Origin: an uncultured Pelagibacteraceae bacterium
GTDB lineage: Bacteria; Pseudomonadota; Alphaproteobacteria; Pelagibacterales; Pelagibacteraceae
Assembly: GCA_902612235.1 (NCBI GenBank)
Contig: CACMCJ010000003.1
Coordinates: 1 to 64,000, forward strand
Direction: 5' to 3'
Length of the DNA: 64,000 bases
Below, piece by piece: positions 1 to 41,006 of the stretch. The position numbers and the translations under genes were made by a program. The notes beneath the pieces are model-generated. The model saw only the letters and a list, made by a program, of their open reading frames with translations. It was not told where the DNA came from and searched no databases. Each line of letters starts with the position of its first letter. The first letter of the stretch is position 1.

Positions 1-270
1 ATTATTGCCGGGCTTAGGCATTGGCATTAACTGCATTTCACCCAATATCCGTGAAACCCTTAAAGTTGGTTGAGCTCCTTTACTCATCCAGTATTTTACT
101 CTTTCAAATTCTACCTTAATTCTATCCTTTTTATCTTTAGGTAATAATGGATTATATGAACCAAGTTTTTCTATAAACTTCCCATCTCTTGGATATCTAC
201 CATCAGCGACTACAATTTTATAAATAGGTCTTTTTCTTACTCCACCCATTGATAATCTAATTCTTAACAT
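1..270 (-). CDS. rpsP: 30S ribosomal protein S16, 3' end cut by window edge
   Basis: Reading the minus strand from the ATG at 268-270 gives a protein beginning [20 protein letters not shown], the hallmark N-terminus of small-subunit protein S16, followed by SRDG-like, YNP and RILGEMQ segments typical of the family. S16 helps assemble the 16S rRNA 5' domain. Ninety codons are visible with no stop before base 1, so the C-terminus lies outside. It follows ffh with only ten bases between them, the common ffh-rpsP order of proteobacteria, and is probably cotranscribed with it. Confidence 0.96.
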
Positions 271-280
271 ATTATTCCTT

Positions 281-1633
281 TCATTTTAGTTGATTGAGCA
301 TTTCATCTGGAATCATTCCAGATGGAATTTTTTTTCCTTTTGACATTTTTTTCATCATGTCAGACATCATTTTAAATTGTTTAAGTAATTTATTAATTTT
401 AGAAACATCTACACCAGCTCCTTTAGAAATTCTTTTTCTTCTAGATCCACTTATAATTTTTGGATTTTCTTTTTCTTTTTTTGTCATTGATAATATAATA
501 GCTTCGTTTTCTTCAAGCATTTTTTCGTCAATATTAGCTTGATCCATTTTAGCTTTCATTTTATTAACACCAGGTAGCATGGACATTACACCCTCCATTC
601 CTCCCATTTTTTTCATTTGTCTAATTTGAGATAGATACGCGTCCATAGTAAAAATACCTTTTTTAAGTTCTTCCTCAGTTTCCTTGATTTTTTCATCGCT
701 TAAGTCTTGTTGAGCTTTCTCCACTAAAGTAACTACATCGCCCATTCCTAATATTCTGTTTGCTAATCTATCTGGATGAAATAATTCAAGATCAGTAATT
801 TTTTCACCAAGACCAATATATTTAATTGGCTTGCCGGTTATATGTTTCATGCTCAGTGCTGCTCCTCCTCTTGCATCGCCATCAACTCTTGTAAGAATTA
901 TTCCGGAAAGATTGACTGCAGTATCAAACTCTTTAGCTAAATTAACAGCTATTTGTCCTGTCAATGAGTCTGCAACTAAAATTGTTTCAACAGGATTTGC
1001 AATATTTTTAATCTGTTTTATTTCAGACATCATAGGTAAATCTATTTGTGTCCTGCCAGCTGTATCAAATATTACAACATCCGAACCATTAAGGTTGGCA
1101 GCATTTAACGCTCTTTTAGAAATATCAATTGGCTGCTGATTTTCGACTATTGGCAAACATTGAATTCCATTTGCCTCAGCAAGTAATTTTAGCTGTTCTT
1201 GAGCTGCAGGTCTGTAAACATCTAAGCTTACTAACATTACCTTTTTTTTAAAATTATTTTCAATATTTTTTGCTAATTTCGCTGCAGTAGTTGTTTTTCC
1301 GGAGCCTTGCAAACCCACAAGAAGTAATGAAACAGGTGGAACAGCTTTAAAATTTAAACCCTCATTTTTTGAACCTAAAATGTTTACTAGTTCGTCATAA
1401 ACAATCTTTACTATCATTTGACCAGGAGATGTTGATTTAATTATTTCTTGACCAATAGCTTTAGGTTTCACATTTGCAATAAATTCTTTGGTGACAGAAA
1501 GAGCTACATCTGCCTCTAATAAAGCTAGCCGTATTTCTTTTAGCCCTGATTCAACTTGCTCCTCAGTAAGTGAAGGAGCACTTTTAAGCTTAGAAAAAAT
1601 ACTTTCTAATTTAATCGTTAAATTTTCAAACAT
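281..1633 (-). CDS. ffh: Signal recognition particle protein Ffh
   Basis: Ffh is the GTPase that binds SRP RNA and the signal peptides of nascent membrane proteins. With the start at 1633 ([10 protein letters not shown]) the protein has 450 residues: an N domain at about 1-95, a G domain with P-loop GLQGSGKT (107-114), DTAGR (190-194) and TRVD (248-251), and a methionine-rich M domain from about 300 with an RRKRISKG stretch for RNA binding. A longer in-frame start at 1660 would add nine residues and run into the hairpin-rich spacer, so I prefer 1633. It is followed by rpsP. Its receptor gene ftsY lies just across the divergent spacer, beyond dapF. Confidence 0.97.
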
Positions 1634-1657
1634 TTTTATAACACCCAACACCGATTG

Positions 1658-1734
1658 CACTAGTGGGCGAACCTTCGCTGACTAGTGTCGACGCTCTTAT
1701 TATAAGAGCACCGCAAAAACATGCGTATTTGCGG
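1658..1734. other. Three consecutive hairpins in the ffh / dapF divergent spacer
   Basis: Three perfect inverted repeats sit side by side: 1658-1664 with 1681-1687 (CACTAGT / ACTAGTG), enclosing GCGA / TCGC at 1667-1670 and 1675-1678; 1693-1699 with 1703-1709 (GCTCTTA / TAAGAGC); and 1711-1717 with 1728-1734 (CCGCAAA / TTTGCGG). They are richer in G+C than the surrounding sequence. In the minus direction they would form the 5' leader of ffh; in the plus direction they would lie upstream of dapF. I do not recognise the SRP RNA core, a tmRNA piece or a known riboswitch in it. Function is unknown; a structured leader or small RNA is the likeliest reading. Confidence 0.6.
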
Positions 1735-1796
1735 AAAGTTCGTGAAAACTACAATTTGGGGTTTTAAAAGTCAATGAATAATTATACTAATTAAAT

Positions 1797-2615
1797 ATGA
1801 CAACTATAGGCGCTTTTAGAATGGATGGTTTAGGTAATGATTTTATCATAATCGATAGAAGAAACAACTCCATTAATTTAAATAAAGAAAAAATTATTGA
1901 ATTAGGTAAAAGAACTAACATTGGTTTTGATCAAATAATCTTCATTGAAAAGGAAAAAGAAAATTCTTTTCCAATAACGATTTTTAATTCTGACGGAGGT
2001 GAAATAAGCGCATGTGGAAATGGTTCTAGATGTGTGGCTTATCTTTTAAGTAAAAATTTAAATACTAAAGAGATCAGATTAAAAACAAATAATCGTTTAC
2101 TTAATGCAAAAATAGTTGGAAATTTTCAGGTCAAGCTTGAAATGGGTAAACCTTTGTTTAACTTTGAAAGTATCCCACTATCTAGAAAAATAGATACTTC
2201 CAACATCTCCTTAGATGTTGATGAAAATAAATTTACGGACGGATTTTGTGTTAATATAGGAAACCCACACATAATTTTTTTTGTCAAGAATTGTTTTGAA
2301 CATGATCTTAAAATTATAGGACCTAAAATTGAGAATAATAATCTATTTCCAGAAAAAACAAATGTTACATTCGCTCAAATTTTAGATAAAAAAAACGTAA
2401 TTGTTAATGTTTGGGAAAGAGGTGCTGGTCTAACGAAAGCATGTGGAACAGCTGCTTGTGCTACTGTTATTGCCGGATTTAAAAAGAAATTAATTAACAA
2501 TAAAGTTGACGTAAAATTTAATGAAGGCCTTTTAAATATTGAGATAAATAGTAATGATAATGTATTCATGACTGGTCCAGTTTCAAAAATTAAAAATATA
2601 AATATAGAAATTTAA
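1797..2615 (+). CDS. dapF: Diaminopimelate epimerase
   Basis: DapF interconverts LL- and meso-diaminopimelate for lysine and peptidoglycan synthesis in the cytoplasm. The 272-residue protein has the family start (GAFRMDGLGNDF) and both catalytic cysteines: C73 in SACGNGSRC and C216 in KACGTAAC, on the two pseudo-symmetric halves. Length is normal. The stop is one base before the ftsY start, so the pair is probably one transcript. In many alphaproteobacteria a tRNA methylthiotransferase gene sits between these two; it is absent here. Confidence 0.97.
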   Translation: MTTIGAFRMDGLGNDFIIIDRRNNSINLNKEKIIELGKRTNIGFDQIIFIEKEKENSFPITIFNSDGGEISACGNGSRCVAYLLSKNLNTKEIRLKTNNRLLNAKIVGNFQVKLEMGKPLFNFESIPLSRKIDTSNISLDVDENKFTDGFCVNIGNPHIIFFVKNCFEHDLKIIGPKIENNNLFPEKTNVTFAQILDKKNVIVNVWERGAGLTKACGTAACATVIAGFKKKLINNKVDVKFNEGLLNIEINSNDNVFMTGPVSKIKNINIEI

Positions 2616-2616
2616 A

Positions 2617-3537
2617 ATGGGATTGTTTGATAAATTTAAAATAGGACTTGGAAAAAGTTCAACGGGTTTGAGCGATGGATTTAAAAACATTTTTTCAAAA
2701 AAGAAAATAGATGAAAATGTATTAACTGAATTTGAAGAATTGATAATTTCTTCAGATGCAGGAATTGAGGTTGCTAAAGAACTTAGAAAAGATTTTGAAA
2801 ATTTTAAAATTGATAAGAAACTAGATAATCATAAAGAAATATTAAAATTGTTAGCTGATAAAATGGCCATTGAACTTTTAAAATATGAAAAAGATCTTAG
2901 TTTAATGGGAAACGCAAAGTCATCTGTAATAGTTGTCTCAGGAGTGAATGGTGTTGGAAAAACGACAACAATAGGAAAGTTGGGAAAATATTTTAAAGAT
3001 AACAATAGATCGGTAGTTTTTGGGGCTGCAGATACTTTTAGGGCTGCAGCTATAGACCAGTTACAAGTATGGGCAACAAAAGTAAGAGCGGATATAATTA
3101 AATCAGAAATTAACAGTGATCCTGCCTCGGTTGCTTTTAAGACAGCTGAATTTGCCAAAAAAAATCAAATTGATATTGCGTTAATAGATACTGCTGGAAG
3201 ATTGCAAAATAAAAAAAATCTCATGGAAGAGTATAAAAAGATTATCAATGTTTTAAAAAAAATAGACGAAAAATTTCCTAACGAAGTGATTCTAGTTTTA
3301 GATGCAACAACAGGGCAAAATGCCCTTAATCAAGTTGAAGAATTTAGCAAAATCCATAATATCACTGGTTTAATTGTCACTAAACTTGATAGTACGGCAA
3401 AAGGAGGAATTATTTTAGCTATTTGTAAAAAATATAATTTGCCTATCGTTGCGGTTGGTATGGGTGAAAAAGACTCTGATCTTCACCCTTTTAAAGCAGA
3501 ATTTTTTGCAAAAGCTCTTTTAGGGTTTAACTCTTAA
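2617..3537 (+). CDS. ftsY: Signal recognition particle receptor FtsY
   Basis: FtsY is the membrane-associated GTPase that docks the Ffh-ribosome complex to the translocon. The 306-residue protein has a short N domain, P-loop GVNGVGKT (109-116), DTAGR (191-195) and TKLD (255-258), and ends with the family GMGEKDSDLHPF motif. The long acidic A domain of the E. coli protein is missing, as in other short FtsY proteins. Its stop codon overlaps the stop of the convergent hydrolase gene by four bases. Confidence 0.97.
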   Translation: MGLFDKFKIGLGKSSTGLSDGFKNIFSKKKIDENVLTEFEELIISSDAGIEVAKELRKDFENFKIDKKLDNHKEILKLLADKMAIELLKYEKDLSLMGNAKSSVIVVSGVNGVGKTTTIGKLGKYFKDNNRSVVFGAADTFRAAAIDQLQVWATKVRADIIKSEINSDPASVAFKTAEFAKKNQIDIALIDTAGRLQNKKNLMEEYKKIINVLKKIDEKFPNEVILVLDATTGQNALNQVEEFSKIHNITGLIVTKLDSTAKGGIILAICKKYNLPIVAVGMGEKDSDLHPFKAEFFAKALLGFNS

Positions 3538-39455: not shown

Positions 39456-41006
39456 ATGTCACAAAAAATTAGGAACGCACTTATATCTGTATCAGATAAA
39501 AGAAACTTAAAAAATCTTTTATATGTTCTTAAAAAACTTAAAGTAAATATTATAAGCTCTGGTGGAACATATAAGTATATAACATCAATGGGTTTTAAGT
39601 GTAAAGAAGTCTCAAAATTTACAGATTTTGAGCCAATGCTTGATGGTAGAGTAAAAACCTTACATCCGAAGATTCATTCTGGAATTTTGTTCAATAGAAA
39701 AAATAAAAAACATAAAATGGAAATGGTTAAAGAAGATTTTCAGCCAATCGATTTGGTAATAGTTAATTTTTATCCTTTCAAAGAAACTCTCAAAAAAACA
39801 GATAACATAAGTAAAATTATAGAAAATATTGATATAGGAGGTCCTACCATGGTGAGGGGGGCCGCAAAAAATTCTGATGACGTAGTAGTCTTAACCGATA
39901 CAGAAGATTACATTGTACTTATTAATGAATTAAAGAAAAATAACGGTAGGACAAGTTTAAATTTCAGACGCAAAATGGCCGGTAAAGCTTTTGGTTTAAC
40001 AGCTTATTATGACTCTTTAATATCAAATTGGTATAATGAAAAACTTGGTATCAAGTTTCCTGAAAAAATTACATTTTTTGGAAAAAAAATTAATCAACTA
40101 AGATATGGAGAAAACCCACACCAAAAAAGTTCTTTATATTTAAATAATCTTAGAGATAATGAATTAGACCTACAACAACTTAATGGAAAAGATTTAAGCT
40201 ACAACAATTACAATGATATATTCGCTGGATTAGATATTCTTTTTTCAAATAAAAAATTTCCTTGTACAGTTATAATTAAACATGCAAATCCTTGTGGCGT
40301 TTCTACAAATAAATCCTCTTTTCAATCATTTATTAATGCCCAAGCAAGCGACCCAATTAGTGCTTTTGGTGGTGTGGTTGCTTGTAATTTTACAATAAAC
40401 AAAAAAATTGCTTTAGAAATTAATAAAACTTTTTTTGAAGTTATATTGGCAAAAGGTTTTGAGAAAAAAGCATTAAGCATGTTAAAAAAAAAGAAAAATA
40501 TGCGAATTATTGATATTTCAAAAGTTTCATTGAAACCAAAAATATTAGCTAAATTTTTTGAGAAATCCATTCTTGTACAAGAAAAAGATCAGATAATCTT
40601 TGATAAGAAGAAGTTGAAATTTGTTACGAAAAATAAACCATCAAGAAAAGAGCTTAAAGATATTGAATTTGCATTTAATGTGTGTAAATACGTCAAATCT
40701 AACGCGATTGTCATTGTGAAAGACAGCTCCACAATTGGTATTGGTGCTGGCCAGCAAAATAGATTAGATAGTTGTAAAATAGCGGCGCAAAAAGCAAAAC
40801 AATTTCAACCGAAAAAGCTTTACAACTCAATAGCCGCTTCTGATGCTTTCTTTCCTTTTGCGGATGGTATGAACAATTTAATTAGAGCCGGCATAAAAAC
40901 AATTGTGCAGCCTGGTGGGTCAATTAGGGATAAAGAGGTTATAGAAGCAGCAAATAAAGCTGGAATAAAAATGATTTTAACTGGTATAAGGCATTTTAAT
41001 CACTAA
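39456..41006 (+). CDS. purH: Bifunctional AICAR transformylase / IMP cyclohydrolase
   Basis: Last two steps of purine synthesis. With ATG 39456 the protein has 516 residues: an IMP cyclohydrolase domain (1 to about 195; LISVSDKRNL, NFYPF, DIGGPTMVRGAAKN) and a transformylase domain with LRYGENPHQ (215-223) and catalytic KHANPCG (275-281). An upstream start at 39429 overlaps the previous gene and is not needed. It ends one base before the convergent carbinolamine dehydratase gene. Confidence 0.97.
   Translation: MSQKIRNALISVSDKRNLKNLLYVLKKLKVNIISSGGTYKYITSMGFKCKEVSKFTDFEPMLDGRVKTLHPKIHSGILFNRKNKKHKMEMVKEDFQPIDLVIVNFYPFKETLKKTDNISKIIENIDIGGPTMVRGAAKNSDDVVVLTDTEDYIVLINELKKNNGRTSLNFRRKMAGKAFGLTAYYDSLISNWYNEKLGIKFPEKITFFGKKINQLRYGENPHQKSSLYLNNLRDNELDLQQLNGKDLSYNNYNDIFAGLDILFSNKKFPCTVIIKHANPCGVSTNKSSFQSFINAQASDPISAFGGVVACNFTINKKIALEINKTFFEVILAKGFEKKALSMLKKKKNMRIIDISKVSLKPKILAKFFEKSILVQEKDQIIFDKKKLKFVTKNKPSRKELKDIEFAFNVCKYVKSNAIVIVKDSSTIGIGAGQQNRLDSCKIAAQKAKQFQPKKLYNSIAASDAFFPFADGMNNLIRAGIKTIVQPGGSIRDKEVIEAANKAGIKMILTGIRHFNH

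Follow-up and report, generated by a model that had tools for sequence, protein, structure and literature searches.

The window, a 64,000-nucleotide stretch of a contig from an uncultured Pelagibacteraceae bacterium, begins with two divergent gene pairs, ffh-rpsP and dapF-ftsY, whose identities were assigned with NCBIfam models. The spacer between them holds three hairpins (h1, h2 and h3), a match to an RNA family of Rfam release 15 and a proposed promoter, arranged as follows:

1..270, minus strand: rpsP (ribosomal protein S16), second gene of the operon, cut by the contig end (TIGR00002, 95.5 bits)
284..1633, minus strand: ffh, first gene of the operon (TIGR00959, 563.5 bits)
1650..1702, minus strand: match to RF01793, 'ffh' (40.1 bits; full length, 1-52)
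1658..1687, minus strand: hairpin 1 (h1), 100% of cells paired in the alignment
1693..1709, minus strand: hairpin 2 (h2), GCTCTTA/TAAGAGC, with covariation
1711..1734, minus strand: hairpin 3 (h3), the first hairpin of the RNA, CCGCAAA/TTTGCGG, with covariation
1746..1751, minus strand: -10 element TAGTTT at spacer 17; TA recurs at spacer 17 in class loci
1769..1774, minus strand: -35 element TTGACT of the proposed sigma-70-type promoter, conserved across Pelagibacterales
1797..2615, plus strand: dapF, the divergent neighbour (TIGR00652, 236 bits)
2617..3537, plus strand: ftsY, SRP receptor, second gene of the divergent side (TIGR00064, 308.9 bits)

The divergent ffh and dapF-ftsY units share one spacer (1634-1796), flanked by the genes for the SRP protein and the SRP receptor, and the two may share regulation from it. 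In the relative G023, the reading frames after ffh are closely spaced and were named by reading as rpsP, trmD, rplS, leuC, leuD and leuB. Many relatives' contigs begin within rpsP, as that of the window does; the C-terminal tail of rpsP in relatives is a Lys/Glu/Ala-rich repeat, and assembly probably breaks there.

The original prediction, made from the sequence of the window, described three perfect inverted repeats at 1658-1734 in a spacer of 163 bases, and both statements proved exact. Read on the plus strand, h1 consists of CACTAGT (1658-1664) pairing with ACTAGTG (1681-1687) and an inner pairing of GCGA (1667-1670) with TCGC (1675-1678), h2 of GCTCTTA (1693-1699) and TAAGAGC (1703-1709), and h3 of CCGCAAA (1711-1717) and TTTGCGG (1728-1734); the spacer runs from the ffh ATG at 1633 to the dapF ATG at 1797. 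The internal loop of h1 contains a C-C mismatch beside an A-C position, and h1 ends 24 nt before the ffh ATG. The repeats had been judged not to be terminators and not to match the SRP RNA core, and both judgements held: a search for intrinsic terminators (GC-rich stem plus T tract) returned 0 sites in 1500-1900, and RF00169 is absent at the locus even at E 10, the genome's own SRP RNA lying on another contig (G000:C4:20574-20668, 55 bits). The folding energy of the region was below that of 200 of 200 dinucleotide shuffles on the minus strand (z -3.06) and on the plus strand (z -5.79).

A covariance-model search, the second check that had been proposed, placed RF01793 over h1. The match spans the 3' arm of h2, the linker and h1, scores 40.1 bits, above the gathering cut-off of 35 bits, and lies upstream of ffh on the ffh strand; the bulge cytosines of the family are represented by the C-C mismatch, in a stem whose pairs covary. 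Rfam assigns RF01793 the type sRNA. Meyer 2009 (PMC2704228) placed the motif on the minus strand of the 159-nt spacer between ffh (-) and dapF (+) in Candidatus Pelagibacter ubique HTCC1062, as one bulged hairpin that shows covariation and contains two cytosines that hardly vary; it is described there as unlike the Ffh-binding part of 4.5S RNA, and a role in ffh regulation is considered possible. The window has the same hairpin, on the same strand and in the same ffh(-)/dapF(+) spacer (PMC2704228). The core of the finding is therefore already known, and the element in the window is a typical representative of an established family.

RF01793 is present rather than absent in close relatives: 222 of the 247 Pelagibacterales genomes searched gave a match, and the other 25 gave none. 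At class level, 112 of 387 genomes had matches at E<=0.001 (86 over the cut-off), and from these genomes 74 loci outside the order were analysed; the 14 named control genomes gave no match (0) in either the order-level or the class-level search. An exact h1 core stands upstream of ffh in 77 of 80 named SAR11 loci, the remaining three comprising two that are cut by contig ends and L285, a sequence variant, and the distance from the inner h1 core to the ATG is 26-47 nt across the order. Nine rows of the SAR11 survey that read CCAC..GCGG are artefacts of the regular expression. The named records closest to the Ffh of the window are uncultured Pelagibacteraceae genomes, up to 94% identical. In the SAR11 variant L285, near 1440-1475 of that locus, the A-C beside the C-C mismatch of h1 has given way to other bases. 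Other class families have C-G, U-A or G-U at this position of the internal loop, which may therefore be a genuine pair; the automated internal-loop caller for h1 variants was off by one in more than 20 rows.

Conservation of the structure was assessed in an alignment (A2) of 52 oriented Pelagibacterales leaders (51 distinct), out of 111 order-level sequences (81 distinct). The three-hairpin structure had 95.6% of cells paired versus 89.3% after shuffling, 113 cells changed on both sides versus 35, and a covariation score of 0.253 versus 0.133; none of 500 shuffles reached the observed value of any of these measures, although relatedness among the sequences makes the figures optimistic. Slid versions of the structure reached a covariation score of at most 0.132. 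The number of pairs with two-sided change was less clear than the other measures (10 versus 7.0 shuffled; 6 of 500 shuffles), and further pair types showed no excess (20 versus 21.4 shuffled; 488 of 500 shuffles). By hairpin, two-sided change affected 2 of 11 pairs in h1 (100% of cells paired), 6 of 7 in h2 (88.1%) and two pairs in h3 (95.8%), where one pair is G-C in 39 rows and A-U in 12, with none broken. Unguided RNAalifold predicted all three hairpins, h3 with fewer pairs. Compensatory changes, which the original prediction had named as a check on its hairpins, are found in all three stems among the 51 distinct Pelagibacterales sequences, and on this comparative evidence h2 and h3 belong to one predicted leader with h1 in Pelagibacterales. 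On the ffh-sense strand, G-U occupies 31 cells versus 13 for A-C, and 10 of the 13 A-C cells fall in two columns, where a bulged A, as read from the rows, accounts for them; in h1 the counts are 5 and 0. Since a DNA palindrome would give equal G-U and A-C, the excess of G-U points to an RNA of ffh sense.

The promoter proposed upstream of h3 rests on conservation, as a generic consensus scan found no promoter. Other Pelagibacterales carry TTGAC[T/A] upstream of h3 with a TA-rich -10 element at a spacer of 16-17, and at class level every one of the 74 loci has TTGAC in the 105 nt preceding the motif, compared with a shuffle mean of 6.2 and a maximum of 14 in 200 shuffles; TA follows TTGAC at spacer 17 in 44 of the 74. 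From this position the RNA would begin a few bases ahead of h3 and ~105 nt ahead of the ffh start codon. Collectively, covariation, G-U strand bias, the conserved promoter and the Rfam match support the suggestion that the repeats lie in an ffh mRNA leader or a small RNA.

Outside the order, conservation of h2 and h3 is uneven. A model of h3 and h2 only (R2), trained on Pelagibacterales and built from alignment A5, which leaves out 10 of 30 rows, matched at the expected position in 4 of 74 class loci, with E below 1e-6 in two of these, and had no match elsewhere at E<=1. Folding of the h3+h2 stretch in the 74 class loci gave p<=0.05 in 16, compared with 10 for the control, with a mean z of -0.82 versus -0.32. 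The h3+h2 part can thus be recognised in the leaders of Pelagibacterales and of some further families, but not at every RF01793 locus. Two weak R2 matches, at 40051-40096 (plus strand, 16.4 bits) in the window and at G000:C6:32229-32304 (22.6 bits), have possibly arisen by chance.

Among the 74 class loci the gene that follows the motif is ffh in 69 and rpsP in five, all five from one family, f41 (loci L309, L310 and L324-L337), whose genomes, surveyed at class level, are 55-97% complete; those more than 90% complete measure ~1.3-1.4 Mb. Of the 18 f41 genomes, 14 carry RF01793; S16 comes first after the motif in all 14 loci, and dapF is divergent on the other side in 13 of 14, L331 starting at a contig end. 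In the f41 genome G099 the motif is followed by rpsP, rimM, trmD, rplS, leuC and leuD (named by reading). Two of the loci, L331 and L337, are Infernal matches though they fall outside the h1 regular expression.

Searches of the f41 genomes for SRP components were negative: Ffh was over the cut-off in 0 of 18 genomes (best match, one 17.2-bit fragment), FtsY in 0 of 18 (weak matches in five, up to 25.7 bits) and SRP RNA in 0 of 18. The best FtsY match, at 25.7 bits, lies in an open reading frame that reads as adenylylsulfate kinase. The control genomes were positive for Ffh in 14 of 14, FtsY in 14 of 14 and SRP RNA in 11 of 14, and the Ffh of the window matches the FtsY model at E 1e-61, so either search should detect either protein. 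Among the six f41 genomes that are at least 90% complete, the motif is kept in five, and G354 has a weak 19-bit FtsY match. The 18 genomes have apparently lost the whole SRP pathway, the absences agreeing across all 18 incomplete genomes. Retention of the motif in f41 genomes that lack detectable Ffh, FtsY and SRP RNA implies a function there independent of Ffh and SRP, and strongly suggests that the motif can act without Ffh, FtsY or SRP RNA.

Structured leaders ahead of operons that encode ribosomal proteins are well known in bacteria. The present region resembles them in being a structured leader before an operon with ribosomal-protein genes downstream (rpsP and rplS), with the difference that a ribosomal-protein ligand is putative here. 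We consider it probable that the region is a ~105-nt structured 5' leader of the ffh-rpsP-trmD-rplS mRNA, acting in cis, with a ligand that comes from the ribosomal part of the operon. Transcription would most likely start near 1739 on the minus strand, from the promoter at 1746-1774, and the nascent RNA is predicted to fold h3, then h2 and then h1, the RF01793 element. The leader would then bind a protein and in this way adjust the translation or the stability of the operon. Because the ribosomal genes are common to the ffh-bearing and the ffh-less contexts, the most likely target of control by the motif is the rpsP-(rimM)-trmD-rplS portion. Judged from gene order alone, its ligand would be a ribosomal operon product, with S16 the first candidate and L19 the second; Ffh or SRP would not be the ligand, since the motif is kept before rpsP in a family apparently without the SRP pathway. 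The name of the RF01793 'ffh' motif probably points at the wrong gene.

A more specific form of this proposal concerns an alternative pairing, between YGGU of the h3 3' arm and RUCR of the linker, which can lengthen h2. In the 51 distinct Pelagibacterales rows, the pair between columns 37 and 63 is C-G in 39, U-A in 11 and U-G in one, and is never broken; in the pair-state table, 14 rows entered as A/C/G, and L217, entered as G/T/G, are G/C/G by eye. The A-linker pattern occurs in 16 of 397 order genomes, all 16 with U in h3, and over 91 tree tips C accompanies linker G in 74, U accompanies A in 16 and U accompanies G in one, with no C and A (0), in a count that takes only the h3 3' letter and the linker, with L217 read by hand and four duplicate loci dropped. 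On the Ffh tree, the h3 pair changes three times and the linker twice, two of these changes being joint and independent, a number too small to reach significance. In the RNA of the window the alternative pairing is 3.8 kcal/mol less favourable. Of the 17 class loci (out of 74) in which the pair could be scored, 13 have C/G and four C/A, and the combination of C with A, carried by two class families, counts against the alternative pairing. In f41, a lengthened h2 without competition from h3 could be drawn in 12 of 12 loci read by eye, with compensatory variants; lowest-energy folds show it in some loci only. That the 'ffh motif' is an S16/L19-sensing leader unrelated to SRP, which in SAR11 works as a two-state switch with YGGU either closing h3 or pairing with RUCR, is a speculative extension and rather doubtful.

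Among the alternatives, a plain 5' untranslated region, whose hairpins merely protect the 5' end of the mRNA or set a constant translation rate without any ligand, would accommodate the putative status of the ligand in the favoured reading; the internal loop of h1, the flanking linker and the 3' tail nevertheless appear conserved beyond what a protective hairpin would need, and we regard this simpler account as rather unlikely. A separate trans-acting small RNA, transcribed from the same promoter but stopping short of the coding gene, would agree with the type that Rfam gives to RF01793 and with the candidate sRNA sm5 of Sinorhizobium meliloti, which was predicted as a separate unit of 108-258 nt with a terminator (PMC2573895). 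That candidate lies in a dapF< ffh> spacer, with a predicted sigma-70 promoter and an array signal on the ffh strand, both consistent with the promoter proposed here (PMC2573895). Spacer, strand and promoter type liken sm5 to the leader of the window, by description and not by sequence alignment, whereas its own predicted terminator sets it apart, and leader or sRNA status may vary between lineages (PMC2573895). In the window, just 24 nt with no terminator-like site separate h1 from the ATG, and the short distance from the inner h1 core to the ATG holds across the order, so that a trans-acting RNA is unlikely here.

Autoregulation by Ffh, which alone or with 4.5S RNA would bind h1 and repress its own synthesis, fits the position of ffh directly downstream in most class loci and nearly all named SAR11 loci; it is quite improbable in view of the absence of any match between h1 and SRP RNA and the placement of the motif before rpsP in the f41 genomes without detectable Ffh, FtsY or SRP RNA. 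That the repeats are DNA operators for the divergent dapF-ftsY and ffh promoters and not RNA structure, as the shared spacer and the even better z of the plus strand might suggest, is very improbable given the G-U excess on the ffh strand, in h1 as well as overall, the bulged A behind most A-C cells and the scoring of the motif by an RNA covariance model across the class.

As published, RF01793 is a lone bulged hairpin, whereas here it is the third hairpin of a leader with three hairpins and a promoter; unlike in the published context, some of the relatives studied here have rpsP after the motif and no detectable Ffh in the genome (PMC2704228). An 'ffH leader RNA' has been reported in Bartonella (PMC7717549), and RF01793 is listed in Mesorhizobium (PMC5596092). 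In the entry for Mesorhizobium huakuii IGR_Pb-19, on a replicon labelled Pb, the genes on either side share one strand, and ffh may be missing from this context (PMC5596092). A literature search, with most subscription journals outside its scope, found no description of the extended leader, of the rpsP context or of SRP loss in such a family. The h1 motif was catalogued already; the present analysis adds h2 and h3 as parts of the same leader, the conserved promoter and the SRP-independent context.

Until now, RF01793 has been a catalogue entry with a guessed role tied to ffh. Its occurrence before rpsP in f41 separates the family from SRP and makes the ribosomal-protein question directly testable, and experiments can start from the full leader with its promoter as a defined construct. 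If confirmed, loss of the entire SRP pathway by a small-genome family would come as a surprise to specialists.
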